A stretch of 34,381 nucleotides of DNA from a virus. This document shows, in pieces, positions 14,131-33,165 of the stretch. The stretch spans positions 1 to 34,381 of the IMG/VR virus record IMGVR_UViG_3300042112_000707, one strand, 5' to 3'. The number at the start of each line of letters is the position of its first letter. Within the stretch, counting starts at the first letter, position 1. Made by a program: the position numbers and the translations under genes. The notes under the pieces were generated by a model, which was not told the DNA's origin, searched no databases, and saw only the letters and a list, made by a program, of their open reading frames with translations.

Positions 14131-14834
14131 GCGGCCTTATCACCGCGGCGGCCATCACGACGGCGGGGGCCGTGGGCGGCAACCTTCTCGCGGCGGACGC
14201 GGCATCGAAGCGTCAAGACGCCGGATTTGCCCGTCAGGACCAAGGCATTCGTCGGCTTGAAGGCTTGGCGGCAGGGCAGGCCGAAGACCCGCGGCTGCGG
14301 CTTCTGTCGCAGTTGGTCGAGCGTCGGCTAATCAACCCGTCCGCGCTGGACCCGCGCACCGTGGAATTGCTCAAGGCGCGCGGTGCGGCCGACATCAACA
14401 CGGCTTCGCAGTCGGCGCTAAACGCGATCCGTTCGCGCGCGGGCGCGTCCGGCAGCATCCGGTCCGGCACGACCGGCAAGTCCGAGGGCGGCGTCGCCCG
14501 GTCGCTCGGCACGGGCATCGCGCAGTTGAATCGCGACATCGACATCCGGGCCGCCGAGTCGCAGTTGGCGGGCGAAGAGCAGGCGGCGCGCATGCTGGCC
14601 GCTTTGCTCGGGATCGAGCAGCAGCCGACGCGCGACCTAGCCAACGCCTACCTCGGTCAAGGGGCGGCGATCGCATCGACGCCCGATCCGTGGGCGGGCT
14701 TCTTCGAGAAGTCCGGCACGGCGTTGGCCGGCGCGGGCTCCAACGTCATGACGCTCCTCGAGCAGCGGCGTCGTGAGGCGGAGCAAAAAGCGCAGTTCGA
14801 TCAGATTTTGACGCAGATCATGGGGCCGAAGTGA
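14127..14834 (+). CDS. Internal virion (ejection) protein candidate, 235 aa
   Basis: The start is the ATG that overlaps the cupin stop. The first 25 residues (MSGLITAAAITTAGAVGGN) form a hydrophobic, Gly/Ala-rich helix. The rest is Ala/Gln/Arg-rich and largely helical, ending with a charged Glu-Gln-Arg stretch (LEQRRREAEQKAQFDQ). A small Ala-rich protein with an N-terminal membrane-active helix, placed before two large helical virion genes, fits the ejection proteins of podoviruses (P22 gp7/gp14, T7 gp14 type). The match is by layout and composition, not by sequence identity. Confidence 0.65.
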   Translation: MSGLITAAAITTAGAVGGNLLAADAASKRQDAGFARQDQGIRRLEGLAAGQAEDPRLRLLSQLVERRLINPSALDPRTVELLKARGAADINTASQSALNAIRSRAGASGSIRSGTTGKSEGGVARSLGTGIAQLNRDIDIRAAESQLAGEEQAARMLAALLGIEQQPTRDLANAYLGQGAAIASTPDPWAGFFEKSGTALAGAGSNVMTLLEQRRREAEQKAQFDQILTQIMGPK

Positions 14835-16117
14835 TGCCTCCCTCCGACACGAGCGCCCCGCCGCCCGCCTTCGACGGCATCCTGCAAGCGATTGCGATGG
14901 GATTCGCCGCCGGTTTCGGCGGGAAAAGCGTCGCCGATATGCAGGCGGAGCAGCGCCGCATGTCGTGGGAGGCGTGGCAGCGCGAGCAAGACGCGAAACT
15001 GCGCCGTGAGGAAATGGACCGCAGCGATCGGCGGTTCCAGCAGCAACTCGACATGCAGCGGACGCAGCTCGAAATCGAGCAATCCCGGTACGAGCGGGAG
15101 GACGCGCGCCGCTTTGCCGAAGACCTGAGCCGCGGCCAAGCGCTCGGCATGTTGGCCCCGGTCGGGGAAGCGGAGTTCACCGCGGCAATGGCTCGCGAGG
15201 GCCGCGCCGCAGACGAAGCGAGCCGGGCCGAAGCGCGCGCCGCGGACCAAGCGCAACGAGACAAGGAAGCGGCGGACGCGGCGGCGTTCGGCGTTCAAGA
15301 AGGGCTTTTGCCGCAGGGCACCACGAGCTTTTCCCCGACGATTCTTCCGGCGCTGGTCAACAGTGCCGAACGGAAGTCGGCGCAGGAGGATCGCAAGGCG
15401 GCGCGATACGACGCCAACAAGGCGCGCGAAGAGCAGATGGCCTTCGATATCTGGCGGACTTTGCGCCAAGAGGACCAGAACATCGAGCAGTTGGACAGCA
15501 CGTTTCGGCAAGCCGCCGTGTCCGCCGCGCGAGACGACCTTATCAACGGGCGCACGACGTCGTTCGAGGGGTCGGTCGAAGCGTACATGCGACTCTTCGG
15601 CAAGGGCAAGGCGGCGTCCGCCAGCTCCTCCGACGTCGCCAAGATCATGGCGCAGATTCGCGGCGGCGACGTGGCGGCGGTGACCGCGCTGCAGAACGCG
15701 ATGCCCGCTGCGGAGTCGCGGCCGGTGGCGGAGTCGAGGCCTGCGGCTGAATCGCGTCCGGTGGCTCCCGCCGCGGCCGACACGCGGCCTGCCGCGGGCA
15801 CGATCCCGCCGGTCGGCAAGAAGCCGTCCGTGGTGTTGCGGGAGAAGGCGGATTCCAAAGTAAAAGCGCAGAAAACCGCACAGCAAGAGGAGCGCGCCGG
15901 TTGGGTGCGAAAGTTCCTCTATAGCGAAGTTCCGCAAGAAGTTTTGGTGGCGATCGAAAACCGCCTTGGCGACAAGGCCGACGAACAGGCGGTGATTGAT
16001 GCGATTCTGAGCAATTGGGACGCCGCTTCGCGCCGTGCCAACCAGTCGCGCTCGCGTTCGTCGGCGGGACCGGCCACGATCGTTTTGGAAGCGGCCAAGG
16101 CCGCGGCTGGTAAGTGA
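14834..16117 (+). CDS. Internal virion/ejection protein candidate, 427 aa, coiled-coil
   Basis: A long helical protein. Residues about 40-110 are a dense Gln/Arg/Glu coiled coil (QREQDAKLRREEMDRSD), and about 125-150 are Ala/Glu/Arg-rich. A Pro-rich linker near 292-325 contains three copies of a six-residue unit (AESRPV/A). The C-terminus has WVRKFLYSEVPQEVLVAIENR near 357-377. The ATG at 14834 shares a base with the previous TGA; the GTG at 14831 would add one residue. The gene lies between another internal-protein candidate and the giant gene, matching the cluster of three ejection proteins in P22-like phages. No enzymatic motif was seen. Confidence 0.65.
   Translation: MPPSDTSAPPPAFDGILQAIAMGFAAGFGGKSVADMQAEQRRMSWEAWQREQDAKLRREEMDRSDRRFQQQLDMQRTQLEIEQSRYEREDARRFAEDLSRGQALGMLAPVGEAEFTAAMAREGRAADEASRAEARAADQAQRDKEAADAAAFGVQEGLLPQGTTSFSPTILPALVNSAERKSAQEDRKAARYDANKAREEQMAFDIWRTLRQEDQNIEQLDSTFRQAAVSAARDDLINGRTTSFEGSVEAYMRLFGKGKAASASSSDVAKIMAQIRGGDVAAVTALQNAMPAAESRPVAESRPAAESRPVAPAAADTRPAAGTIPPVGKKPSVVLREKADSKVKAQKTAQQEERAGWVRKFLYSEVPQEVLVAIENRLGDKADEQAVIDAILSNWDAASRRANQSRSRSSAGPATIVLEAAKAAAGK
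15710..15763 (+). repeat. Three 18-bp tandem units coding AESRPV/A
   Basis: Three imperfect 18-bp units (15710-15727, 15728-15745, 15746-15763) encode AESRPV, AESRPA and AESRPV inside the internal-virion candidate. Synonymous differences (TCG CGG, TCG AGG, TCG CGT) show that the peptide is kept while the DNA has drifted. It probably forms a flexible Pro-containing spacer. Confidence 0.75.
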
Positions 16118-19100
16118 TGCCAGACCCCTTCAAACTTCCCGCTCTCGGCGGATTCACGACGCGCCAAGACGCGCTGGACGGATACCGTCCGTCTGAGCTC
16201 GAAGTCCGCGCGGAGTTGGAGCAGCGAAAGAAGGACCAAGAGGACGGGCTGTTTACGACGATCCTCAAGACGCCGGAAACGCTCCTCGGGGCGCACGCGA
16301 TTCGCGGATCGGTGCGCGGCATCGGAGAGCAGGGCACGTTCGAGGGGTTCGTCGAGGGCTTCTATCGCGGCCTGCCGACCACCAAATTGACGGACTGGCT
16401 CGGCATCACCGAGGACCATTTTCGCGAGACGTATACCGCGGACATTCGCCGTGCGTTCGGAGACACCGACCAAAGCGGGATGGGCAATTTCGTGCTCAAC
16501 CTCGCCGGGGACATCCTGACCGATCCGTCGTCGTTCGTGACGGCCTTCGGAAAGACGGCCAAGGGCGTTGCGGCGGGCATGGACATCGCGGCAGGCGTGG
16601 CGCAGGGGATCAAGAACGGCGAGCGCGCGGCGCTGGTCTTCAAGTTCCCTTGGATGGAGCGCATCGCGTTCGGGCTGCCCGTGCTCGATGCGTCGTTCCG
16701 AAAGATGGGCTTCCAGTCGCTTTCGCTGAACATCGCGGAAGGGCTCGATTCGTGGGCCGGATGGATGCGCACCGGCCCCCTCAACGGCATCACGCGCGCG
16801 CTGACGTCCCAAGCGATCGGCATTTCCGATCCGGAGCAAGCCCGGGCGATTAAGCGTCTCGGCGAGCAGTTGCGAGGCACTCGCGCGGGCGTCGAGTCGG
16901 CGTTCCTCCAAGTCTTTGCGCAGACGCCTAAGGAGGCGCAAGAGTTCCTGCTGAGTTCGCCCGCGGCGCAGCGCGTCGTGCTGGAAATGCGCGAGCGAGG
17001 GCTGGCGTCGTTCGACGACATCCACCAGCTGAAAGCGATCCTCGAGCAACCGGCGATGGTTCCGATTACGCCCGATTGGGTGCAGATCGCGGATCGCACC
17101 GCCGGGGTCGGCGACATTGCGACGCCGCTCGAGAAGGCGCGCGCCGACGTCGCTTCCTCGGTGGCGATGCAAGAGGCGCGCACGATCGAAGGCGCTCGCG
17201 AGTCGGTTCTACGCGACGTCGACGAAGTCATGGCGGCGATCGACGCTTCGCAGGCGGGCGGCGGGAAACTTCGCGAAGGGCTCGACAAGTACCTCGTGAA
17301 CGCCGTCGGCTTCATGCGGAAGCTCGGCGACAAGGAAGTAGCCGAAGGCATCCTGAACGGGATGTTTGAACACTACGTTCCGCGGCACGTGACGGACGAA
17401 GCGCGCAAGCTCATCAACGCGCGGTTCGATGCGGCGATTCAAGGGGCCGGATCGGGGCTCAATCGCATCGAAGCGTTCATGCGCGGTCGCAAGTTCACGG
17501 ACCTCACTACGGTGGAAGCGAACGCCGTGGTGCGCGAGCTCGGCACGCGCGCGACCGGCTACGTCCCGCTCGACGACATCGCCAAACTGGCGGAGCAAGA
17601 AGCCGGGTTCTTCACCAAGATTTTCGACGCGGATTTCGTCAAGCAGTTGCGCAAGGTCGACGACGACGCGGCCGACTTCTTCAACGTCAACCCGATTTTC
17701 GCGGACCTCTTGCGGGCGCGCGCTTCGGGGCAGGCGCTCGGCTCGGCGAACTTCCGCCGCAACGCTCTTCGCGCGATCTCGAAGGGCGACTTCGCCGCGC
17801 GAGATTTGGCGGCGCGGGCGCAAGAAATCCAGCAGTTGAGCGACAAGGGCTACGTGGCCGTCGTCGAGGGCAAGGGCGGCCGCCTCGAGCGCGTTGCGGA
17901 AGACACCTTCGTCGCGGAGCAATTCGGTCGCGACGGAAATTCGCGGTTCTTGCTCCATCGCGATCGCCTGCGCGATCACGTGGACGGACTCATCGACGCC
18001 GAAGGCGCGGACTTCGACAAAACGGTCGCCGGTCTGGAAAAGGCCCGCGACATCGGGCACGTCGCGGGCGCCCCGACGAAGCCGAAGCGCGCGGGCCTGC
18101 TACCGAAGGGCACGCGCCGCCCGATGTCGGAAGAGGAGTTGCTGAACGCCGACCTGCGCGTTTACGACAACGACGACGCCGCCACGGTGATGATGAAGCA
18201 GGCGCTCGTCGATCAACGGCTGGCGATTCAAGAGCGGAACCTGTTGCGGCAGGCTCGCGAGCTCAATGCGTCCGGCGAGACGGCCTTTGTCGGCACGAAG
18301 GGCGGCGGGGCGCAGCGGAATTTCACGGCCGATACGGTCGTGCGCGATGCGCGGCAGCGCGCGGCGGCGCGACTCGAATCGGCCAAGACCGCCGAGGCCG
18401 AACTCGAGGCGGTGCGGCAGTCGATCGTCGGAATCGACGATGAATTAGCCGCGCTCGCGGAGGCGGACCGCAAGGCCACCGAGGCGGCCAAGGCCGCCTT
18501 CGTGGGCGGCGAAAAGGTCCGCAAGACGGCAGCCCGGGCGGAGCGGTCCGGCCAAGCCGCGGATCGCGCCTTCGGCGCCGCGGACGTCCGGCAGACCGAA
18601 GCCGCCGACCTCGCGGCCGAGCGGGCCGGTCGGAATTTTCAGTTCTACTCGCGGCAGGCCGACGAAGCCTCTGGCGCGATTCCTGAGCTCGCGGGACGGG
18701 TCGATGCGGCAGAACTCGCGGCATCGTCCGCGGCCGAACGAGCGGCCGTCCTGCGGGCGGAGCGGGCCGCCTTGGAAAAGGACGCGGCCATTCTCGCGTC
18801 CTTCAAGGACGACTTAGCGATTGCGAAGAATCCGAAGGCCATCGAAACGCTGGTCGAGCGCGAGTTGCGCGAGCGCGCCGCAGACGTCCGGGAGCGCCTG
18901 TCGCGGGCCAAGCTCAACACGCAAAGCACGCGCGCGGCGATTCAGTCGCAGATCGACGAACTCTCCGATGAATTCCGAGAGTACGCGACGTCGGTTTACG
19001 GCGACCTGCGCGCCGCTGAAAAGCATCTTGCACACCTGAAAAAGCTCGGCACGCACGGAAGCGTCGCCGCGCGCCAAATTCGTGAGTACCGCCGCGCCGC

Positions 19101-20787
19101 GCGCGAGGGCCTGATTCCGTTCCAAGCGCTTGACCCCAAGCAGCAGGCGGCGATTGTGCGGCGCTCTCCGGACGCGCGGGTGCACTTCGTGGACCAGCGC
19201 GACCTGAACGCGGTCACCGAGTACCACCGCGACCTCACGCGGCCCGACCCGCTGCGCAAGTATGCCGTGGTGCGCGGGCTCGATTCGGTCACGTCGCTCT
19301 GGAAGGCATGGACGGTCGGCAACATCGCGTTCTTCAACGGCCGCGTGCGCGACGCCATCACGGGCTTCGCGACCCTGTCCATCGGCCGCGGCGCGCCGGT
19401 GTCGCGCTCGGCCGTGTGGGACGCGCAGGCGACCGCCCGGGCCTTCAAGCGCGTCATGGCGGGGCACGGGACGATTGAAGAGCTCGGAGCCAAGGTTGCG
19501 ATCAAGGGCGTTCCGGCGGAGTTCTCGACCGCCGATCGCGTGCTGACGTTCCTGTCCGACAACGGCGTGCTCGATTCCGGGCTCATTCGCGACGCCGTCA
19601 TGGAATCGTCGGCGACCGCGGTGCGGGCGGGCGGCGCGACGCCGTGGACCGACTTTTTCTCCCGCAAGATTTTCTCGCCGTCTCCGACCACCAATCCGTT
19701 GACGCGGAAGGGCTACGAGGTCGCCAATTTCGGGGACAATTGGGTCAAAATCACGGGATTCATCGACGGCTTGAAGCGCGGCGAGACGCCGCAACAAGCG
19801 CTCGATTTCGTGCGGCGCAACACCTACACGCCCCGCGCCAACGCCACCACGTTCATGAAGTCCAAGGTGGCGCGCGCGTTCCCGTTCGGGGAGTTTGCGT
19901 CGTGGGCGATGGCCACCACGGTGCGGCAGTTCATCGAGAAGCCCGGCACCGTTTCGTGGATCGAGAAGATGCAGCGCAACGCGGCGACGTCCGTGGGCGT
20001 CTCCGATGACATGGAGCGCATCCTTCCCGACTTCGTCAAGGACGGGCTCGGGGTGCCGTACAAGAAGACGCCCGCCGGTCCGGCCTACTTCCTCTTCGGC
20101 GGATACCTTCCCGCGGCCGAACTTTCCAAGCTCGCCTCGGCGCTCGAGTCGATCGGGAAGCCGGTCGAGGAGGGGAAGGCGGGGCCGGTCTACCGCTACT
20201 TGGTCGGCCAGCTCAACCCGATCGCGAAACTCTCGATCGAGCTCTTGGTCAACAGCGACTCGTTTTCGGGAGCGGAGATCGAAGCCTACGAGGGGCAGGC
20301 CAAGGAGATGTTCGGCGTCGCCGTTCCGGCCAAGGTCTACCAGACGTTCCGGCAAATCCGGCTTCTTTCGGAGCTTGATCGCCTGAACGTCATCAACTTG
20401 GACCAAGCCAGGCTGATGGTCAACGCCGTCGAGCGTGGCCAGAAACTCGGATCGCGCGAGGAATTGCCGATCGCGGAGCGGTTGGCGAGTTCGGCTTTCG
20501 GCGTGCTTCCGAAGCAGTACCAGATCGACGCCGCGGAGCAGGTCCGCGAGGCGCGGCGCCACGACCAGAACCGACGTTCTGCGGCCGCCGCGCGGCTTCG
20601 TGGGCAACTGGAGAACGCGCCACCCGGGGCGAAGCGCGACGCCAACATCGAGGCGCTGCGGAAAGAGCTCATCGAGGGCGCCGCCGACGCCGCACAGACG
20701 GAAGCCGCCGCCCGGGAATACGGAGCGGAGCAGAAGATTCAAAGCCGATCGCGGGCCACCTTGGGGTTCGGACGCATCGGTCGCTGA
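16117..20787 (+). CDS. Giant internal virion/ejection protein, 1556 aa
   Basis: The largest gene of the window, starting at the ATG that shares a base with the previous TGA (GTG 16114 would add one residue). The N-terminal third is mostly helical with hydrophobic patches. About residues 745-1010 are a very Ala/Glu/Arg-rich coiled region. The C-terminal part (about 1060-1400) holds phrases typical of very large phage virion proteins: WKAWTVGNIAFFNGRVRDA near 1066-1084, NPLTRKGYEVANFGDNWVK near 1193-1211 and FPFGEFASWAMATTV near 1256-1270. They recall the large polyvalent-protein-associated segments. No transglycosylase (Glu-Ser-Gly) or polymerase motif was seen. The role inferred is transfer into the host together with DNA. 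Confidence 0.7.
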   Translation: MPDPFKLPALGGFTTRQDALDGYRPSELEVRAELEQRKKDQEDGLFTTILKTPETLLGAHAIRGSVRGIGEQGTFEGFVEGFYRGLPTTKLTDWLGITEDHFRETYTADIRRAFGDTDQSGMGNFVLNLAGDILTDPSSFVTAFGKTAKGVAAGMDIAAGVAQGIKNGERAALVFKFPWMERIAFGLPVLDASFRKMGFQSLSLNIAEGLDSWAGWMRTGPLNGITRALTSQAIGISDPEQARAIKRLGEQLRGTRAGVESAFLQVFAQTPKEAQEFLLSSPAAQRVVLEMRERGLASFDDIHQLKAILEQPAMVPITPDWVQIADRTAGVGDIATPLEKARADVASSVAMQEARTIEGARESVLRDVDEVMAAIDASQAGGGKLREGLDKYLVNAVGFMRKLGDKEVAEGILNGMFEHYVPRHVTDEARKLINARFDAAIQGAGSGLNRIEAFMRGRKFTDLTTVEANAVVRELGTRATGYVPLDDIAKLAEQEAGFFTKIFDADFVKQLRKVDDDAADFFNVNPIFADLLRARASGQALGSANFRRNALRAISKGDFAARDLAARAQEIQQLSDKGYVAVVEGKGGRLERVAEDTFVAEQFGRDGNSRFLLHRDRLRDHVDGLIDAEGADFDKTVAGLEKARDIGHVAGAPTKPKRAGLLPKGTRRPMSEEELLNADLRVYDNDDAATVMMKQALVDQRLAIQERNLLRQARELNASGETAFVGTKGGGAQRNFTADTVVRDARQRAAARLESAKTAEAELEAVRQSIVGIDDELAALAEADRKATEAAKAAFVGGEKVRKTAARAERSGQAADRAFGAADVRQTEAADLAAERAGRNFQFYSRQADEASGAIPELAGRVDAAELAASSAAERAAVLRAERAALEKDAAILASFKDDLAIAKNPKAIETLVERELRERAADVRERLSRAKLNTQSTRAAIQSQIDELSDEFREYATSVYGDLRAAEKHLAHLKKLGTHGSVAARQIREYRRAAREGLIPFQALDPKQQAAIVRRSPDARVHFVDQRDLNAVTEYHRDLTRPDPLRKYAVVRGLDSVTSLWKAWTVGNIAFFNGRVRDAITGFATLSIGRGAPVSRSAVWDAQATARAFKRVMAGHGTIEELGAKVAIKGVPAEFSTADRVLTFLSDNGVLDSGLIRDAVMESSATAVRAGGATPWTDFFSRKIFSPSPTTNPLTRKGYEVANFGDNWVKITGFIDGLKRGETPQQALDFVRRNTYTPRANATTFMKSKVARAFPFGEFASWAMATTVRQFIEKPGTVSWIEKMQRNAATSVGVSDDMERILPDFVKDGLGVPYKKTPAGPAYFLFGGYLPAAELSKLASALESIGKPVEEGKAGPVYRYLVGQLNPIAKLSIELLVNSDSFSGAEIEAYEGQAKEMFGVAVPAKVYQTFRQIRLLSELDRLNVINLDQARLMVNAVERGQKLGSREELPIAERLASSAFGVLPKQYQIDAAEQVREARRHDQNRRSAAAARLRGQLENAPPGAKRDANIEALRKELIEGAADAAQTEAAAREYGAEQKIQSRSRATLGFGRIGR

Positions 20788-24147: not shown

Positions 24148-24242
24148 GCGGGCCGCTGACGGACGAGCGGGGCAACCCCTACCTGGAGTCGCCGCCGCCG
24201 TCCGAGCGGCTGGCGGGGCCGCCTGAGCAGACTATTCGTTGA
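24144..24242 (+). CDS. Very small Pro-rich protein, 32 aa
   Basis: A GTG-initiated frame joined to the previous gene by GTGA. It encodes VSGPLTDERGNPYLESPPP and a short tail. It is the last plus-strand frame before the convergent minus-strand operon and overlaps that operon's last gene by 11 bp. The overlap type matches the rest of this genome, which is the only support. It may be a chance frame. Confidence 0.35.
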   Translation: MSGPLTDERGNPYLESPPPSERLAGPPEQTIR

Positions 24243-24249
24243 CCTGCTC
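24225..24249. repeat. Inverted repeat at convergent gene ends
   Basis: GAGCAG (24225-24230) and CTGCTC (24244-24249) form a 6-bp perfect stem around a 13-nt loop. It sits exactly where the plus-strand block (stop 24240-24242) and the minus-strand operon (stop 24232-24234) meet. There is no T-run on either side. It could be a weak two-way terminator. Confidence 0.3.
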
Positions 24250-24405
24250 TGCGCATCTTCCAGCCCACTGTGCAAGGAAGACCAGCAGCTTAACGGCATC
24301 GGATACCGTCAAAGTGACGTGCTGCTCCTGCTCAAGACCTACGTCAACCGATAGGAACTCGAAGCAGTCCTTGACGCTGAGCGTGTCCGAAAGGATGTGG
24401 CGCAT
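24232..24405 (-). CDS. Hypothetical protein, 57 aa
   Basis: Starts MRHILSDTLSVKDCFEFL at an ATG that shares a base with the stop of the gene before (TAATG on the minus strand). Residues 38-47 (VKLLVFLAQW) form a hydrophobic helix, short for a membrane span. It is the last gene of the leftward operon. No family was recognised. Longer readings starting upstream are Arg-rich shadow sequence inside the previous gene and are not preferred. Confidence 0.55.
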   Translation of the reverse strand: MRHILSDTLSVKDCFEFLSVDVGLEQEQHVTLTVSDAVKLLVFLAQWAGRCAEQVNE

Positions 24406-24752
24406 TAGGTGCCTTCGTGCGTGCCTTCGACGCCTTGAGCCGTGCGCCTCGCGGTGCGCGCCTGCAAGGCGTCCATGGCGATCTTGAGCCCGCGCAGGGC
24501 TTCGTGGTTCTCCTCGCACGCGAAGCCCGCAGCGTTGTAGAACTCGATGCGCTTCTGCGCGATGTAGATCAAGTCTTCCACGAACGCTCCGTTGCGGCCC
24601 TTGGCATCCTTGATGGGGCCTTCTTGAAAGTCCGCTCGGGCAACGATCGAATGTCCCTGCCCGAACGGGATGTTCACGAAGGCCGTCCCACCAGCCGGTT
24701 TGCCGTTCTCGTCGAGTTGGTTGCGGATGGTGATCTTGCTTGGGTCGAACAT
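24405..24752 (-). CDS. Tad1/Acb2-like small protein (candidate anti-defence nucleotide sponge)
   Basis: A 115-aa protein starting MFDPSKITIRNQLDENG. The second half carries FQEGPIKDAKGRNG near residues 42-55, EDLIYIAQKRIEFY near 59-72, FACEENHEALRGLKIAMDAL near 77-96, then RTARRTAQGVEGTHEG at the C-terminus. From memory, this order (GPI..NG, helix, F.C.EN.AL..L..AL, RT..R..GVEGTH) is that of small phage proteins given an Acb2/Tad1 hairpin domain. Known members bind cyclic nucleotide signals of CBASS or Thoeris immunity. No search was possible, so the match is tentative. The ATG at 24752 has GGAG nine bases upstream; a GTG at 24758 overlaps the previous stop (GTGA) and is the alternative. Confidence 0.55.
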   Translation of the reverse strand: MFDPSKITIRNQLDENGKPAGGTAFVNIPFGQGHSIVARADFQEGPIKDAKGRNGAFVEDLIYIAQKRIEFYNAAGFACEENHEALRGLKIAMDALQARTARRTAQGVEGTHEGT

Positions 24753-24754
24753 GG

Positions 24755-24877
24755 TCACTTTCTCCCCGCGACCGGCGGGGGCGGTAGGTGCTGGTCGTTC
24801 AGATGGACGACGTAAGCCGCCGCGACCATCGCGGCGTAGAGGACGGCGACGAGCAGGACGGAGGCGAGGCGCTTCAT
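24755..24877 (-). CDS. Small membrane protein, 40 aa
   Basis: MKRLASVLLVAVLYAAMVAAAYVV is a single hydrophobic helix (about residues 4-24) after two basic residues, followed by a short hydrophilic tail with PPPP. It could be an inner-membrane protein or a secreted peptide with a signal sequence. The start ATG (24877) lies 13 bp past the stop of the HNH gene. The stop lies three bases before the ATG of the Tad1/Acb2-like gene (overlapping its alternative GTG). No family was recognised. Confidence 0.5.
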   Translation of the reverse strand: MKRLASVLLVAVLYAAMVAAAYVVHLNDQHLPPPPVAGRK

Positions 24878-24890
24878 GTCATCAGTTCCA

Positions 24891-25256
24891 TCACGCGCCG
24901 CCCGACGACTTCCGCGACGCCTGTTCCCTGCGACCGTCCGCACGCATCTTTGCGGCGCATGGGTCGCCGCAGCACTTGTTTCGCAAACGCTTGCGCGGAT
25001 TTACCGTGAATGGCGATCCGCAAACGACGCACTTCTTTATGTCTGGGTAGGACTGCTTGTGCAGTCTCATGTGTGCCGCGCTCAAGAGAACGACAAGATT
25101 TTCTTCGCGGTTGTCCAATGGGTTTCCGTTGATGTGGTGGACATGCTCCGAAGCAAGTAGCTTTCGCCCGAGCTTCTGCTCCATGATCCAGCGATGAGCG
25201 CGGACTTTTTTCCCATCCCGCCATATCAACCGCGTCCGAGTGTTTGGGCTTGTCAT
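24891..25256 (-). CDS. HNH endonuclease with zinc knuckle, 121 aa
   Basis: Residues 21-66 form an HNH core: RWIMEQKLGRKL (22-33), then EHVHHINGNPLDNREENLV (37-55) with the His and Asn residues of the metal site, then AHMRLH (61-66). A second module has CVVC at 76-79 and CCGDPC at 95-100, a zinc knuckle. This is the arrangement of free-standing HNH homing-type nucleases of phages. The start ATG lies three bases after the stop of the C5-methyltransferase gene. A nuclease paired with a methyltransferase may be chance insertion or a functional pair. An overlapping frame in another register (from 25263) is judged a shadow. Confidence 0.85.
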   Translation of the reverse strand: MTSPNTRTRLIWRDGKKVRAHRWIMEQKLGRKLLASEHVHHINGNPLDNREENLVVLLSAAHMRLHKQSYPDIKKCVVCGSPFTVNPRKRLRNKCCGDPCAAKMRADGRREQASRKSSGGA

Positions 25257-25259
25257 GCA

Positions 25260-26204
25260 TCATGGTAACGCAATGCGTTTCCTGATTTCAAGCAAGCGAC
25301 GGCCGGCCACCTCGGCAACGGCAGGAACTACGGCGTTTCCGAGGCACTTAAGCCTGTCCACCCGAGAGGGAACCCCATGAGCCACTCGACCCACGGAGGG
25401 TTCAGGTGTCCACCCACGGTCGCGTTGAGCCCCGACGATCGCGCCCCACCCGGCGTCGTCGATACTCCGCCGCGGCTGTCCTCTTTGGTCGGCGTCGGCC
25501 AAAGCCGTACCGCTCTCGCAAGCGTCGGATTGTCGCCAGCAAACTGCGAGTCCTGATCCGGTCTTCCCGCTTTCGGCGTCGGCCACATTCGCACGGCCTG
25601 TCCGAGCGTGTCCGATACGAGCCTCCCGGTCACCTTGTCGTAAAGCCGCTGATTCGGATGCCTCGGTGGATTCCCGCTCGCATCCACAATTCGATCTATT
25701 CTTAGTCCGCATTCCGACGTTGTTGGCGTCGGCCATAATTCCGATGATGAAGACCCGATCCCTACGGTGATGGGCGCCGACGGCGGACGCCGGAATGCAA
25801 TCCCACTCCGCATCGTACCCGCTCTCGGAAAGCTCTCCGAGTACGTCGCCCATTCCCCGTCCAAGCAACGCTGCGACGTTTTCCAGCACGACGAAGCGCG
25901 GTCGAACCAAGCGAACGACTCGCATGAGTTCGTAGAACAGTCCGCTTCGTGCGCCTTCGATTCCGGCTCGTTTTCCGGCATTGGAAATGTCCTGACACGG
26001 GAACCCTCCGCAGATCAGATCGACCGGCGGAACGTCGTGCATCTTCGTGATGTCGTCAAACCGTTGAGCATCCGGCCAGTGCTTCGCAAGAACGGCCCGC
26101 GCATAGGGGTCGATTTCGCATTGCCAAACGGTGCGACCGCAACCGGCTCTTTCGAGTCCGAGTTCAAGGCCGCCGATGCCGCTGAAAAGCGAGCCGATTT
26201 TCAC
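25260..26204 (-). CDS. dcm: DNA (cytosine-5) methyltransferase
   Basis: A 314-aa protein with all core motifs of the C5 class: motif I FSGIGG (residues 7-12), motif IV GGFPCQDIS (66-74) with catalytic Cys70, motif VI ENV (108-110), motif VIII HRRDRVF (146-152) and motif X LGNAVVP (288-294). The target-recognition part (about 155-275) contains the repeated phrase ADA(N/E/D), often seen in phage members. It would methylate cytosines in phage DNA, most likely as protection from host restriction. It starts with GTG at 26204, overlapping the previous stop (GTGA). No partner restriction enzyme is obvious, apart from the adjacent HNH gene. Confidence 0.93.
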   Translation of the reverse strand: MKIGSLFSGIGGLELGLERAGCGRTVWQCEIDPYARAVLAKHWPDAQRFDDITKMHDVPPVDLICGGFPCQDISNAGKRAGIEGARSGLFYELMRVVRLVRPRFVVLENVAALLGRGMGDVLGELSESGYDAEWDCIPASAVGAHHRRDRVFIIGIMADANNVGMRTKNRSNCGCERESTEASESAALRQGDREARIGHARTGRANVADAESGKTGSGLAVCWRQSDACESGTALADADQRGQPRRSIDDAGWGAIVGAQRDRGWTPEPSVGRVAHGVPSRVDRLKCLGNAVVPAVAEVAGRRLLEIRKRIALP

Positions 26205-26698: not shown

Positions 26699-27210
26699 GT
26701 CGTCCCCTTCTCCGCCGCGCGGCGGGCGCGGTGATGGTCCCATGCGCGCCAATAGGTTTCGGCGTCGATCTTCTCCGTCGTTCCGAAGATGGAGTTGTGC
26801 GTCTTGGTTCCGGCCGAGTAGAAGCCGTCGCACGCCTTCCGCTCCGCGTCGCGTTCCTTCATCGTCGAGTGCAGAAGGTTGCGCATGGCCAGCACGTTGT
26901 CCACAACGCCTTCAACCGTGAGGCTATGGTCGTCTGGGTCGTTCTCGGGGGAGACGATGTTGAGGATCGCGTCGAGCGCCGCGCGCAGCCGCTCGACTTC
27001 GGCCACGAGGGCGGGAATGTCGTTGCGGGAGTGCTGAACGAAGTCGGCGTTCGCGTCCAACGTGACGTATGCGATGTGCAACAGGTCTTTCGTGACGATT
27101 TCCCAGATGTGTCGTCCCGCCATGCGCATCCGCCAGATGCTTCCGTCGCGGTACGGCTCGCTGGTCGTCGCCTTCTCCGCCCGCTCCTTGATCTTCCCGA
27201 TGTCAAGCAT
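26695..27210 (-). CDS. Ead/Ea22-like protein, 171 aa
   Basis: It opens MLDIGKIKERAEKATTSEPYRDG. The middle holds ANADFVQHSRNDIPALVAE followed by VERLRAALDAIL (near residues 53-83). This Asn-Ala-Asp-Phe...Asp-Ile-Pro-Ala-Leu...Glu-Val-Glu-Arg-Leu phrase is the hallmark of the Ead/Ea22-like family in early operons of temperate phages, whose biochemical role is unknown. The C-terminus is mosaic (SAGTKTHNSIFG, then an Ala/Arg tail). The start overlaps the upstream alanine-rich gene by 8 bp. Confidence 0.7.
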   Translation of the reverse strand: MLDIGKIKERAEKATTSEPYRDGSIWRMRMAGRHIWEIVTKDLLHIAYVTLDANADFVQHSRNDIPALVAEVERLRAALDAILNIVSPENDPDDHSLTVEGVVDNVLAMRNLLHSTMKERDAERKACDGFYSAGTKTHNSIFGTTEKIDAETYWRAWDHHRARRAAEKGTT

Positions 27211-27751
27211 GGTCGGACTCCTTCAACGGCCACGTCGGATAGTGCCGTCGCACAACGTCGGCGCACTCGCTTAGGACGCGCGAACAGGCGGCGTCGTAGG
27301 CGGCGGCGTAGGCGGCGGCGTAGGCGGCGGCGTCGGCGGCGTAGGCGGCGGCGGCGGCGGCGTCGGCGGCGTAGGCGGCGCGGGCGGCGGCGCGGGCGGC
27401 GGCGCGGGCGGCGGCGTAGGCGGCGTCGTAGGCGGCGGCGCGTATATCGGACATAGATACATCATCGCCCCGCGCGAAGCGGTCGCACAGATCCAACGTC
27501 GCACGCACTCGCCCGTCTCCCGGTCGGCGATGCTCAAAGATCGGGAGCGCCAAACGCGCGCACTCGGCGGCGGCTCCGACAAGTCGGCGGCGTCCTTCCG
27601 ACATAGGCGGCCCCGCGAGCTTTCCGCAGAGCCAAAGCATCCAGTCTCCGCGTTCACAAGCCGCCCAAATGGTCGGGCCGTCCTTGTCGGAAGCCCAATC
27701 CAACGCCTCGCGGCACGCCCCCATCGCACTCAGTTTGTCTTGGACGGTCAT
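27203..27751 (-). CDS. Alanine-rich repeat protein, Imm-5-like (paralogue A), 182 aa
   Basis: The folded N-terminal part has GACREALDWASDKDGPTIW (residues 11-29), ACERGDWMLWL (31-41) and an Arg/Ala helix ending LALPIFEHRRPGDGRVR (near 68-84). A low-complexity run (about 103-155) follows in which Tyr, Asp or Arg recurs roughly every four residues among alanines. The C-terminus CSRVLSECADVVRRHYP (156-172) closes the domain. This set matches proteins usually annotated as putative immunity protein (Imm-5) in phages and bacteria; their function is not established. The start ATG overlaps the previous stop (ATGA). A homologue lies at 33986 on the other strand. Confidence 0.75.
   Translation of the reverse strand: MTVQDKLSAMGACREALDWASDKDGPTIWAACERGDWMLWLCGKLAGPPMSEGRRRLVGAAAECARLALPIFEHRRPGDGRVRATLDLCDRFARGDDVSMSDIRAAAYDAAYAAARAAARAAARAAYAADAAAAAAYAADAAAYAAAYAAAYDAACSRVLSECADVVRRHYPTWPLKESDHA
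27287..27452 (-). repeat. Low-complexity GCC-rich array coding AAAY/D/R
   Basis: On the minus strand, GCC codons alternate with TAC, GAC and CGC roughly every fourth codon. The unit is about 12 bp with a few slips. It encodes the Ala/Tyr/Asp/Arg helix of paralogue A. The array invites replication slippage and produces arginine-rich shadow frames on the plus strand. Confidence 0.8.
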
Positions 27752-28443
27752 TGGTTGGCCTCCGCTTCCGCCGCGTCGATCGACAGCGCCAAATCGATCA
27801 TGGCGTCGAGGTGGCGGGTTCGTGGCAAGTATGCGGCGTTTTCGATGGCGGCGGCGGCGGCGTCGGCGGCCAAGGCGGCGTAGGCGGCGTAGGCGGCGTC
27901 GGCGGCGGCGGCGTAGGCGGCGGCGGCGTCGGCGGCGTAGGCGGCGGCGGCGGCGGCGGCGTAGGCGGCGGCGGCGACGTAGGCGGAGGCGTCGGCGTCG
28001 GCGGCGGCGTCGGCGGCGTCGGCAGCGTCTCGCATCTCCCCCATCGTCGCCGTTGGCGGCAACGACGCCAGCCGGTCGGCTTGATCCGTCATCCCAGCGG
28101 CTCGCAACGCCTCCGCCGCGATCACCGTGACGGCGTACCGTGCGACCGCTTCCGCGCGTCGTCTCGTCGTCTCGTCGTCGCGCCGCGAACCGATGATCCG
28201 GTCGATCATCGGCAATGCCCATTGTTTGCGAAGCTCGCCGTCCATCGGCAAGTCGTTCCGCGCGATCGCCAGCCTGCGAACGACGGGGCACGCGCAGTCC
28301 AGTACGTCGGTCGCCTCACCAAGAGGCTCGCCGCGCGAGACGCGCAGCTTCGCGACGGCGGCAGACATGATGCACGCGGTGCCTTTGGCGGGATTGCCCG
28401 CACCGATCACGAAGGTAAGCGTAGACGGGTCGAAGGTGGTCAT
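27748..28443 (-). CDS. Alanine-rich repeat protein (paralogue B type), 231 aa
   Basis: The start ATG at 28443 has AAGGA nine bases upstream. The N-terminal part reads TFDPSTLTFVIGAGNPAKG (2-20) and CIMSAAVAKLRVSRGEPLG (23-41). It continues with DCACPVVRRLAIARNDLP (near 48-65), then IDRIIGSRRDDETTRRRAE (near 78-96). I recall this order from phage proteins that share the alanine-rich tails of Imm-5-like proteins. Residues about 142-205 are an Ala-rich run with Tyr and Asp, and the C-terminus AAYLPRTRHLDAMIDLALS is ordered. The stop overlaps the start of paralogue A, so the two are translated together. Function is unknown; a shared role is likely from the common repeat and coupling. Confidence 0.72.
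   Translation of the reverse strand: MTTFDPSTLTFVIGAGNPAKGTACIMSAAVAKLRVSRGEPLGEATDVLDCACPVVRRLAIARNDLPMDGELRKQWALPMIDRIIGSRRDDETTRRRAEAVARYAVTVIAAEALRAAGMTDQADRLASLPPTATMGEMRDAADAADAAADADASAYVAAAAYAAAAAAAYAADAAAAYAAAADAAYAAYAALAADAAAAAIENAAYLPRTRHLDAMIDLALSIDAAEAEANQ
27846..28027 (-). repeat. Low-complexity GCC-rich array coding Ala/Tyr/Asp
   Basis: This is a second GCC-dominated array on the minus strand. Units of GCC, TAC and GAC codons encode the Ala/Tyr/Asp run of the upstream alanine-rich gene. It is less regular than the array at 34280, with runs of up to seven alanines. Confidence 0.8.
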
Positions 28444-28724
28444 TGGAGTTCCTTTTCCGCCGCGTCGAGGGCGGCGTCGATGGGTGCGTAGGAGCAAGTC
28501 TCGCCGTGCTTTTCGTAATGGCCGCATCCGTAGCACTGCCACTGGAAACCGATCGACGGAGGAACGCGCCGCCACGGCCTTTCCACCGCCGCCCGCACGA
28601 TGGCGATCAGCACGGGCGCGGCGTTCACAGCGGCGATATGGCCTTCGCTCGGCTTCATCAGATCCGGCGTCGCCTTCGCCGCCTTCGCGTCGAGGTCGTC
28701 GAGCCACGCCTTAAGCGCGCTCAC
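28440..28724 (-). CDS. Small protein with Cys knuckle, 94 aa
   Basis: The protein begins with GTG overlapping the previous stop (GTGA at 28724-28721): SALKAWLDDLDAKAAKATP. Residues about 64-78 have CYGCGHYEKHGETC, a short Cys/His cluster able to bind one zinc ion. The C-terminus is helical (PIDAALDAAEKELQ). The start MSALKAWLDDL...P plus AAPVLIAIVRAAVE resembles Ead-type modules of early operons. Function unknown. The stop overlaps the next ATG (ATGA). Confidence 0.65.
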   Translation of the reverse strand: MSALKAWLDDLDAKAAKATPDLMKPSEGHIAAVNAAPVLIAIVRAAVERPWRRVPPSIGFQWQCYGCGHYEKHGETCSYAPIDAALDAAEKELQ

Positions 28725-29165: not shown

Positions 29166-29663
29166 CTATTCGTCTTGCCCGGGCTCGCGCTCGGGCGGAA
29201 TCTCCTCGTCGGGCGTAGGCTCCTCGGTCGCAGCCGCTTCGGGCGCGTCGTCGATCGGAGCTTTGAGCTTGCCGATCGGCGTCGCGGGATCGAGCGCCTT
29301 GGCCCGAATGCGCACGGCGCACACGGTCTTGTTGCCGAACTTGACCTTGGTGTCCACGAACAGCGCGACCTTCTTTCCGTACCAGTCCGCCGTGCTGCTG
29401 CCGTAGGCGGCGATGAGCGAACGCAGGTTGGTCGCGTTCAACACCAATTCGCGATCGACGTTCTTGAACTTGAGGGAACCGACGTCCGATTTGACGTCTT
29501 TCAGCTTAGTCCCGGGGCGCGCGAACTCCACGCGCTTGCGGTACCGAACTTCCTCGATTTCGACGACGATGTCGGAATCGAGGGACAGCATTTCAAACGT
29601 GATCCACGGCGTCGACCGCAGGCGGCCCGCCACGCCGGTGAACTTCTGAAACGACTCGGTCAT
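29166..29663 (-). CDS. Conserved phage protein next to RecE-like nuclease, 165 aa
   Basis: The protein starts MTESFQKFTGVAGRL at an ATG overlapping the previous stop (ATGA). The core contains KNVDRELVLNATNLRSLIAA, then YGSSTADWYGKKVALFVDT, then CAVRIRAKA, a phrase set shared by many phage proteins encoded beside recombination nucleases (LNxTN...L...G..T..W.GK...L). The C-terminus (about 130-165) is an acidic Pro/Glu-rich tail like that of single-strand-binding proteins. A DNA-binding or recombination-accessory role is inferred from neighbours; no enzymatic motif is seen. Confidence 0.7.
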   Translation of the reverse strand: MTESFQKFTGVAGRLRSTPWITFEMLSLDSDIVVEIEEVRYRKRVEFARPGTKLKDVKSDVGSLKFKNVDRELVLNATNLRSLIAAYGSSTADWYGKKVALFVDTKVKFGNKTVCAVRIRAKALDPATPIGKLKAPIDDAPEAAATEEPTPDEEIPPEREPGQDE

Positions 29664-30481
29664 GCGTTCTCGCTTTCGTCCACGAGGGACAGCAGATCGG
29701 AAGACGCGGGCATGTCGATGACTTGCCACTCGTCCGGGGTGCCCGGCCAAACTCCGCTTCGCTGGCACTCCAGCAAGCGATCCAGCGTCCGTTGGTTCTC
29801 GCACGCGAGCACGTCCAAGTCGTTCTCTTTGAGCTCGACGAGCCACACGTGATGCGGCGGCTTCGGATGCACGACGACGAGCCGCGCCCCGGCGACGCGC
29901 AAGCCGCACGTTTGCAGGCCCGTGCGATAGTGCGCGGCTTGGTGCATCCAGCCCTCCGCCCACGCTCGGAACGGCACGGACCGTTCGCACGCGAAGCGGC
30001 TGACCTTCAAGTCGTAGATGTAGTCGTCGGCGAAGAAGTCGAGGCGGCCCTTGCAGACCGCGCCGTGTTGCGACCACAGCACCGACAGCTCGACCGTTTG
30101 CGCTTCCGTCGCTTTCGCAAGCGCCTCGGCCGCCGCGCGCTTGGCAAGGAACGCCCCGGCCACGCCGCGAACGATCTCGGCTTGCGTCGCCGAAAGAATC
30201 TCGAACTCGGCGTGCTCAAGTTTCCACGCCTTGCCCTCTTTCGTGGCGAAGCTCATGCCGTCCGGCTTGAAGCGGTAGCGCTCGGCGAAGCGCTGCGGCT
30301 CGAGGATCGCCATGTGGCACGCCGTGCCGAGTTGCATCGCGTCGGTGGGCTCGTCGTTCTGCGCGCGGCGCCACGGCACCAAGGCCGGGGGGCCTTCGCG
30401 CATCGCCTTCAAGTCCGACGATCCCCACGCGGGCAGGGCGTGATACTCCGCCGCGGCGTAGTTTTTGAGAATCTGATTCAC
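29660..30481 (-). CDS. RecE-like PD-(D/E)XK exonuclease, 273 aa
   Basis: The motif order is that of the RecE/YqaJ-type nucleases of phage recombination: LGTACHMAILEPQRF (51-65), Glu131 in VELSVLW, GRLDFF with Asp148 (145-150), YDLKVS with Asp157 and Lys159 (156-161), and QAAHYRTGL (181-189) with the conserved Gln and Tyr. The enzyme would resect double-stranded ends to make 3' tails. It starts with GTG at 30481 overlapping the ATPase stop (GTGA). Usually such a nuclease is paired with an annealing protein, but none was recognised nearby. It ends in an acidic stretch (SLVDESENA). Confidence 0.82.
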   Translation of the reverse strand: MNQILKNYAAAEYHALPAWGSSDLKAMREGPPALVPWRRAQNDEPTDAMQLGTACHMAILEPQRFAERYRFKPDGMSFATKEGKAWKLEHAEFEILSATQAEIVRGVAGAFLAKRAAAEALAKATEAQTVELSVLWSQHGAVCKGRLDFFADDYIYDLKVSRFACERSVPFRAWAEGWMHQAAHYRTGLQTCGLRVAGARLVVVHPKPPHHVWLVELKENDLDVLACENQRTLDRLLECQRSGVWPGTPDEWQVIDMPASSDLLSLVDESENA

Positions 30482-31674
30482 GCTTGCGGCTCCTGCACGC
30501 GGCCGTCCTCGATGATGATGGAGCACTCCTCGCCGTGGCCGACCCGTTCGATCCACAGCTGCGCCGCGCCGTCCTTCACCTGCGTCGCGAGCAGCTTGAG
30601 GCTTTCGTCGTCGAGCAGCGAGCCGTCGCGAATGAGCATCACGCGAAGGGTCGGATTCATCGCGAGCCCCATCGCGACGCTGACGCGCAACTTCTCCGCC
30701 GCGCTCGCCTGCGAGAACGGGACGCCGCGGTAGGTGACGCCGTCCTCGGACAGCGACAGGCCCTCCACGGGCATCTTGGCCCGGGCGATCATGTCCGCCT
30801 TCTCGCGGTCGATCGCCTCGATTTCGGCGGTGAGCTCGTCCGACACCTTCTGCTGCCGCTGCGCCGCGTCGGTCGCGGTGCGGTGCGAGTAGTTCTGCCG
30901 AATGAGCTTGTTGGTCGCCTGCGCGTTGGCGATCTCGGAAGCCAGCGAGGAAACGTCCGGCACTTCGGCCGCCGCGGTCGGCTCGAGCGTGATGATTTGT
31001 TGCTCGGCGGCGGCGATCTTCTCGCGCCACTCCGCGATCGAACGCCGAAGGTTGGCGATGACCGTGCGCGCCGCGTTGGTCTCCCGCGCGCGCTCCATCA
31101 TTTGATCGCGGCGATCGACCAAGTCTTGCAAGACGATCTCTTGCTCGGGCAAGTCGGGCGTGAACGTCGCCGAAGCGGCCTGCGCGCGCAAGCGATCCCG
31201 CTCGCGGTTCACTTCCGTGCGTCGCGCGTAGGTCTTTTCGCGCCGCTCGTTGAGCATCGTGAAGTCGAGTCCGACGACGCGCCGCAGCATTTCGATTTGC
31301 GACGAGTGCTTGGCGCGCGAGAACTCAAGCGGATCGAACGTCAGCGAGCCCGTGATCTTGTCGAGCAGCGCTTGCGGCGACGAGAACCGCTCGCCTTCGC
31401 GCCCCTTCACGACGAGCTTTTCCCCGCGTCCGAACGTGCGTTCGACCACGTACTTGCCGAGGTCGACCGTGATGGTCGCTTGATCCTCCCCGTGCCGGAT
31501 CGGCTCTTCGGGAGCCGCGTCACGCCCGCCCAATGCGGCCATGATCGCATCGAGCACCGAGGATTTTCCCTGCGCGTTGCGGCCGCCGATGACCACCATC
31601 CCCGATTCGTCGGGCGTGATCTCGACCGCTTCGAGGCGCTTGAAGTTTTGCGCCGAGAGCTTCACTACTTGCAT
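30478..31674 (-). CDS. SMC/Rad50-like AAA ATPase, 398 aa
   Basis: The Walker A GGRNAQGKSS lies at residues 30-39. A central coiled coil (about 135-300) separates it from a signature SQASAAEKLRVS (321-332) and a Walker B-like LRVMLIRDGSLLD (343-355). The ABC/SMC head is thus split around a short arm with no zinc hook. The usual Asp-Glu pair is Asp-Gly here, as I recall for related phage ATPases. Partnered with the RecE-like nuclease it may act in double-strand-break processing. The ATG at 31674 has GGAG six bases upstream and is preferred to the upstream GTG-type reading. It is the first gene of the leftward operon. Confidence 0.85.
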   Translation of the reverse strand: MQVVKLSAQNFKRLEAVEITPDESGMVVIGGRNAQGKSSVLDAIMAALGGRDAAPEEPIRHGEDQATITVDLGKYVVERTFGRGEKLVVKGREGERFSSPQALLDKITGSLTFDPLEFSRAKHSSQIEMLRRVVGLDFTMLNERREKTYARRTEVNRERDRLRAQAASATFTPDLPEQEIVLQDLVDRRDQMMERARETNAARTVIANLRRSIAEWREKIAAAEQQIITLEPTAAAEVPDVSSLASEIANAQATNKLIRQNYSHRTATDAAQRQQKVSDELTAEIEAIDREKADMIARAKMPVEGLSLSEDGVTYRGVPFSQASAAEKLRVSVAMGLAMNPTLRVMLIRDGSLLDDESLKLLATQVKDGAAQLWIERVGHGEECSIIIEDGRVQEPQA

Positions 31675-31710
31675 GCGTTTCTCCGCGACGCGCCGGCGCC
31701 GCACGCGCTC

Positions 31711-32241: not shown

Positions 32242-32393
32242 AATTCGTCGGCGGCGAACTGGACGGCTACGACGTGCCGGTCGAACTGGTCGAAGTAACC
32301 GACCACGTGTTTTCGATCGACCGGGCGCGGTGCTGGTTGCTCGTGCGTCGCGACGACGGCGTCCTCGTATTCGAGATTTTCAATGCTCCTTGA
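32238..32393 (+). CDS. Small hypothetical protein, 51 aa
   Basis: A GTG-initiated frame overlapping the previous stop (GTGA). It encodes [19 protein letters not shown] and [19 protein letters not shown], a compact, strand-rich sequence. It overlaps the methyltransferase gene by 11 bp. The balanced composition and double overlap support a real gene. Function unknown. Confidence 0.55.
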
Positions 32394-33165
32394 ACGAGTC
32401 GAGATCGGGCCGCACGTGCTCTATCGCGCGGACTGCCGCGACGTGCTGCCGCTCGCCGACGCCGACGTGTGCGTCACCGACCCGCCCTACGGCGAAACGT
32501 CGTTGGCTTGGGATCGGCGCGTCGACGGGTGGCTCGACGCGCTTCGCACCGTGCAACTTTGGTGCTTCGGCTCGTTGTCGATGTTCATGGAGCGGTCCGC
32601 AGACTTCTTGCGGTTCGGCACGAAGGCCCAAGAAATCGTGTGGGAAAAGCACAACGGATCGAACTTCCACGCCGATCGCTTTCGGCGCGTTCACGAATTG
32701 TTCGTGCATTTCTATCGCGGGGCGTGGTCCGACTTGTACCGCTCCGTACAGACGACGCCCGACGCCGTCCGGCGCGTCGTTCGCCTCAAACGCAAGGCGC
32801 CGCATCACACCGGCGCGATCGAGCCCGCGCCCTACTCTTCGGAAGACGGCGGGCCGCGGCTCGCCCGCTCCGTGATGCGCGTGGCTTCGGCGCACGGCTA
32901 TGCCGAGCATCCCACCCAAAAGCCGGTCGCGATCATCACACCCGCCGTCGCCTACTCGTGCCCGGCGGGTGGCGTCGTGCTCGACCCTTTTATGGGCAGC
33001 GGCTCTACCGGAGTTGCGTGCGCACGGCTCGGCCGCCGCTTTATCGGAATCGAAATCGACGAAACGTACTTCCGCATCGCGTGCCGTCGCATCGCCGACG
33101 CCGTGAACGGAGGAGTACAACCTAATTTGTTCGACTCGGAGGCATTCACCCAAGGAGGGGATTGA
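32383..33165 (+). CDS. DNA N6-adenine/N4-cytosine methyltransferase (DPPY class)
   Basis: A 260-aa enzyme with the catalytic motif DPPYG at 33-37. Its C-terminal part has HPTQKP (176-181), [10 protein letters not shown] (201-210) and IGIEID (221-226). The order catalytic motif then SAM-binding motif marks the beta class. The ATG at 32383 overlaps the previous gene. Methylation of phage DNA would shield it from host restriction or tune gene expression. No cognate nuclease is adjacent, so it is probably an orphan. The C-terminus ends in [14 protein letters not shown]. It is the last clear gene before the terminator region. Confidence 0.9.

Follow-up and report, generated by a model that had tools for sequence, protein, structure and literature searches.

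A divergent Tad1-family protein, probably a sponge for nucleotide alarm signals, encoded on the minus strand of a virus contig

A minus-strand gene of a 34,381-base virus contig, the whole stretch of DNA analysed here and called the window in the following, encodes a protein that is, as judged by its sequence, predicted fold and conserved residues, a divergent member of the Tad1 family. That the product of this gene is a divergent sponge of the Tad1 family, whose oligomeric state, ligand and anti-defence action we infer, is given a probability of roughly 85%. The preliminary description of this DNA had noted a likeness to Acb2/Tad1 proteins; homology to Tad1 was confirmed in sequence and predicted fold, and the protein is of the Tad1 rather than the Acb2 type.

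Comparison of the single protein sequence with solved chains yielded E-values of 2.4e-8 for CmTad1 (8kbb) and 9.2e-5 for CbTad1 (7uav), and of 4.1e-8 for phiKZ gp184; CmTad1 and CbTad1 are represented by PDB entries 8kbb-8kbf, 7uav/7uaw and 8smd. With a family profile of 82 relatives the values were 1.4e-26 for CmTad1, 1.3e-20 for CbTad1 and 3.8e-13 for gp184. A profile-profile comparison of 20 members of the branch described below with 12 canonical Tad1-type sequences gave a probability of 99.8% over 76 columns at 39% identity. An HMM of these 12 canonical sequences scored the window protein at 71.8 bits and the best of 20,000 shuffles at 14.6 bits, and residues 1-41 of the window protein alone gave no match to this HMM. 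Relatives were present in 112 records of the phage collection at E<=1 (best 2e-15), with two annotated Tad1 proteins among the 60 matches listed. The single-sequence scan of viral_contigs returned 12 loci with relatives, the alignment-guided scan of IMG/VR 115 relatives among 250 pattern-matched stretches (80 kept), and the scan of genome_contigs two among 48 stretches. Some canonical-type Tad1 homologues (L010-L013) carry a long lysine-, alanine- and proline-rich N-terminal extension ahead of the Tad1 part.

The window protein gave no match to the Pfam model PF24729 (Acb2_Tad1_hairpin; cut-off 27 bits) even at E<=1, nothing was returned for it by NCBIfam and PADLOC, and its PHROGs matches, including that to phrog_2428 at 2.9e-20, were all to families of unknown function. 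PF24729 consists of 58 positions and covers the hairpin alone. At E<=0.1 it matched 23 of the 82 alignment members. Among ten homologues scanned, two clade mates (L054, 33.7 bits; L026, 31.2 bits) and two annotated Tad1s passed the cut-off, the canonical-type L007 stayed below it at 23.2 bits, and the model was unreported for the five others, including the homologues of Phabio and OLIVR5. Since profile, PDB and structure searches recover Tad1, the Pfam miss is a sensitivity limit of the 58-position model, which serves for detection and does not define the family. The hairpin-domain profile search proposed in the preliminary description thus had a divided outcome, with no match from PF24729 and matches from other Tad1 profiles, and the refutation of a Tad1 identity that the silence of Pfam, NCBIfam and PADLOC might have suggested was overturned by the profile, PDB and structure searches.

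The open reading frame was found on the minus strand at the position described before, and the four motifs quoted for it (FQEGPIKD, EDLI, FACEENHEAL and GVEGTHEG) are all contained in the translation (Table 1). Its ATG is preceded by GGAG with a spacing of 9 nt; an alternative in-frame GTG at 24758 would add two residues. The GC content by codon position is 61, 43 and 81% in a genome of 65% GC. The reading frame is a true coding gene, given the GGAG before the ATG and the 81% GC at third compared with 43% at second positions. That it is spurious, or that its likeness to Tad1 arose by chance, is hardly credible: Pfam does not recognise the protein and a 132-aa plus-strand reading frame overlaps the gene, but homology, shuffles, third-position GC, the GGAG before the start and the fold are in agreement, and the shuffle control together with the independent homologues ruled this explanation out. 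A 57-aa reading frame (24232-24405, minus strand) begins within the stop codon of the tad1-like gene (TAATG) and may be translationally coupled to it; no counterpart turned up in the phage collection, and among the other loci only copies of the same virus gave a match with a meaningful E-value.

Table 1. Positions of the tad1-like gene, its parts and other genes in the window
Feature	Position	Strand	Details and basis
tad1-like gene	24405..24752	-	115 aa; ATG at 24752, stop TAA at 24407-24405; ORF and translation, Tad1 homology, third-position GC
GGAG, putative ribosome binding site	24762..24765	-	read from the sequence; inferred assignment
Predicted antiparallel beta strands (residues 7-42)	24627..24734	-	strands 7-13, 19-30 and 33-42; AlphaFold2
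P-x-G-G motif, branch marker (residues 19-22)	24687..24698	-	alignment, motif script
Hairpin helix alpha1 (residues 58-77; R68, Y72)	24522..24581	-	AlphaFold2, column counts
Hairpin helix alpha2 (residues 80-105; N82, R99, R103)	24438..24515	-	AlphaFold2, column counts
Conserved C-terminal tail QGVEGTHEGT	24408..24437	-	E109 in 93/98 and G110 in 95/98 rows
HNH_3 protein	24891-25256	-	domain match
C5 cytosine methyltransferase	25260-26204	-	domain match
Imm5-like protein	27203-28291	-	domain match
Exonuclease VIII-like protein	29660-31030	-	minus-strand ORF
AAA/SbcC-like ATPase	30478-31704	-	minus-strand ORF
N6/N4 DNA methyltransferase, second besides the C5 enzyme	32383-33165	+	PF01555, 5.3e-29
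1557-aa ORF, in the genome's plus-strand half	16114-20787	+	ORF

The monomer was predicted with AlphaFold2 from an 82-row alignment including canonical relatives (mean pLDDT 92.4, pTM 0.81) and contains the two-helix hairpin that the preliminary description had anticipated. In the predicted model two long C-terminal helices follow an antiparallel beta sheet at the N-terminus, the arrangement distinctive of Tad1. In structural comparison with VIA-align, CbTad1 and CmTad1 ranked at the top with Z 10.4 over 109-111 residues, nearly the whole model, at an rmsd of 2.8-3.0, so that model and Tad1 agree no closer than about 3 A; the next unrelated fold reached Z 6.9 and covered the hairpin only. All 20 Foldseek matches in the PDB at E<=0.001 were Tad1 chains, and the top match in BFVD was a protein of Vibrio phage VP-1 designated 'Acb2/Tad1 hairpin domain-containing protein' (TM 0.80, 43% identity). 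The Acb2 protein Vs.4 of phage T4 was aligned over the hairpin only, at a Z of 5.7 that lies in the uninformative range of the tool. Acb2 proteins (T4 Vs.4 and those of Pseudomonas phages) have in common with the window protein the two-helix hairpin and the same general sponge strategy, but they are described, in PMC12043709, as consisting of one short and two long helices with no beta sheet. An Acb2-type identity was rejected and the protein classed as Tad1-like because of its N-terminal beta sheet and its match to Tad1 over the whole length.

Across the 98 rows of the family alignment, conservation is nearly complete at G45 (98), N54 (97), G55 (98), E59 (96), R68 (96), N82 (97), A85 (97), R99 (98) and R103 (98), and position 72 is aromatic in 96 rows (Y in 61, F in 35). 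A 17-row alignment that included the window protein has 13 invariant columns, all of them kept in it. F82 and N92 of CbTad1, which we take to be ligand-pocket residues, align to Y72 and N82, and R109 of CbTad1 matches R99. By manual count this numbering (F82/N92/R109) fits the PDB-derived alignment; the three labels were not found in the Tad1 literature searched, which consisted of texts dealing with cA3 and Thoeris. Conservation of Y72 and N82 is consistent with the sequestering of gcADPR or cyclic oligonucleotides. According to PMC12043709, the ligand pocket of Tad1 is formed by loops, the C-terminal tail and alpha1-alpha2, and the hexamer is a trimer of dimers with six pockets for gcADPR or CDNs and two sites for cyclic trinucleotides. 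Since the window protein keeps hairpin and tail and has a changed N-terminal part, which in Tad1 takes part in forming the pocket, it is likely to sequester such signals, with uncertainty as to the exact ligand.

This change is not confined to the window protein. In most of its IMG/VR relatives the canonical KYT.V.HE...NAPHHF...FQEGPIKE.G.NGV.NEDLI is replaced by D..GNPAGG...G.G..I.WQNGPLGRG..R.EPNGAFVEDVI, and the canonical N-terminal motif KYT.V.HE...NAPHHF is absent from the window protein itself. P19, G21 and G22 are invariant across 20 branch members. The loose pattern of the motif script assigned P.GG to 73 of the 98 family rows, a count in which L103 was wrongly included and L083 (GNPTGG) missed, and L084 has NPSSG. 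A tree was calculated from the region from FQ.G onwards (76 columns for 98 rows) after four near-duplicates and L023 had been dropped. It placed 72 of the 73 P.GG rows on one side, together with three rows scored without the motif, and the Tad1 of SBSphiJ7, CmTad1, CbTad1 and phiKZ gp184 on the other, with weak support for the split (59/86); 'branch' is therefore used as a working label for a weakly supported split on few columns. As far as the collected sequences indicate, the GNPAGG branch is large, consists mainly of phages of environmental metagenomes and is often invisible to Pfam. Its nearest relatives from isolated phages, among the matches listed and on the tree, are those of Vibrio phages. 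No account of the branch was found in the literature on phrog_2428 and Tad1 homologs, most subscription papers being outside this search.

CmTad1 and CbTad1 are similar to the window protein in sequence and, over the whole length, in the predicted beta sheet and helical hairpin, and have in common with it G55, R68, the aromatic residue 72, N82, R99, R103 and G110-T111 of the tail; N54 and E109 are found in CmTad1 only, CbTad1 having His and Leu. In contrast, identity in the structural alignments is 20-29%, and both have KYT.V.HE...NAPHHF N-terminally where the window protein has a motif of the D..GNPAGG type. The Tad1 proteins of the Bacillus phages SBSphiJ7 and SPG24 match residues 37-113 in tblastn (6e-7 and 9e-8, respectively) and have the tail GVEGTHE in common with the window protein, whereas their N-terminal half differs. 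The Vibrio phages 1.244.A, VP-1, BX-1 and VAP7 encode proteins that are 43-49% identical to the query and cover 85-94% of it, and the two that were aligned (1.244.A and BX-1) contain the DG.P.GG motif. In the phage collection the Vibrio phage relatives are recorded as 'hypothetical protein' or without annotation, and for one pair 'TMhelix containing protein' also stands under the match.

A modified N-terminal half raises the question of whether the sponge binds a signal other than those of Tad1 or has lost part of the Tad1 range. This is somewhat unlikely. The N-terminal half is unlike canonical Tad1 across the whole branch while the hairpin and tail residues are kept, and no characterised protein on the tree falls inside the branch, the split itself being weakly supported; on the other hand, the counterparts of CbTad1 F82/N92 are conserved as Y72/N82 and the model in its entirety can be superposed on Tad1 with bound ligand, which makes ordinary binding the simpler assumption. 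The more specific idea, that the GNPAGG branch is a class of sponges with a signal specificity of its own, possibly towards a nucleotide signal so far untied to Tad1, is speculative and judged unlikely. If it were true, the branch signature could point to alarm molecules that are important in uncultured bacteria.

The gene lies in a minus-strand block with the other minus-strand genes given in Table 1, and the weak matches to head and tail proteins are located on the plus strand of the window; the 1557-aa reading frame on that strand had no match in Pfam at E<=0.01 or in PHROGs at E<=0.001. This layout bears on the possibility that the Tad1 fold has been kept for another job, for instance in a virion or injected protein with a primarily structural role. 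Relatives in Lactococcus phage 1706, the Bacillus phages P59 and CM1 and Klebsiella phage Eowyn are annotated 'structural protein', and phiKZ gp184 enters with the injected genome (PMC10449902). This jumbo phage Tad1 (PDB 8y6v) matches residues 44-114 and has the FACEEN stretch and the aromatic Y in common with the window protein, but it is a chain of 230 residues with a long N-terminal extension. The window protein, by contrast, is a bare 115-aa domain encoded together with HNH, methyltransferase and exonuclease genes, and the head and tail matches fall in the plus-strand structural block instead. Moreover, phiKZ Tad1 is reported to block both CBASS and Thoeris and to be injected and anti-defence at once (PMC13282480), so packaging is compatible with a sponge. 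A primarily structural role is consequently regarded as very improbable, and the sponge is retained as the preferred function.

Conservation of the neighbourhood was assessed by comparing all reading frames within 6 kb of the gene against each other at 83 loci, matches of at least 95% identity being left out of the clustering; among the loci are the window and L023 (both the same virus) and four near-duplicate pairs, and many contigs end within the flank. No conserved neighbour was detected at these 83 loci, the largest cluster, when the gene itself and antisense reading frames are excluded, comprising eight of them; by reading of its sequence this cluster appears to be terminase-like. The C5 methyltransferase cluster was present at five loci, the window and its copy L023 being one virus. 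Three other clusters, those ranking second and third in size (38 and 16 loci) and a small one (four loci), overlap the position of the gene on the other strand and are read as antisense reading frames. Cytosine methyltransferase, HNH and Imm5-like genes are indeed nearby, as had been noted, and none of them is a conserved neighbour of the family; a counter-defence cassette, as had been proposed, finds no support at the 83 loci, and the tad1-like gene behaves like an individually mobile gene rather than like part of a fixed cassette. At 27203-28707 on the minus strand two long reading frames with alanine/tyrosine runs (AAYAA-like repeats) overlap, one of which matches PF21805 (Imm5_like) at 6.1e-9 over residues 234-331, partly within the repeats.

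A second record, IMGVR_UViG_3300042199_000477 (48,036 bases; L002 and L106-L108), represents the same virus as the window, with 100% identity over the first 10,345 bases compared and 99.7-100% in further pieces, and contains about 10.5 kb that are missing from the window. Both of its ends correspond to window positions 14482 to about 17571. Because they overlap in this way, the record appears to be a complete, circularly permuted genome of about 45 kb, and the window would make up about three quarters of it.

According to the proposed mechanism, the sponge would be produced from the minus-strand gene block of the phage after infection, would most likely assemble in the fashion of Tad1 as a trimer of dimers, and would bind nucleotide alarm signals of the host without cutting them. 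Candidate signals are the glycocyclic ADP-ribose of Thoeris and/or the cyclic di- and trinucleotides of CBASS. With the signal bound, the effector would never be activated and cell suicide would not follow. Expression of CbTad1 in E. coli triggers the Panoptes guard system (PMC12657218), and a host with Panoptes might therefore exploit a protein of this type to the disadvantage of the phage.

Phage sponges show which alarm molecules their hosts employ, and a sizeable share of Tad1 family members from metagenomic phages escapes the current Pfam model. The profile and the branch signature are a practical means to find such proteins and provide a small set for ligand screening. The window protein, a member of the Tad1 family, is a good sponge candidate; it leaves the picture of sponge action unchanged and does not represent a new kind of system.
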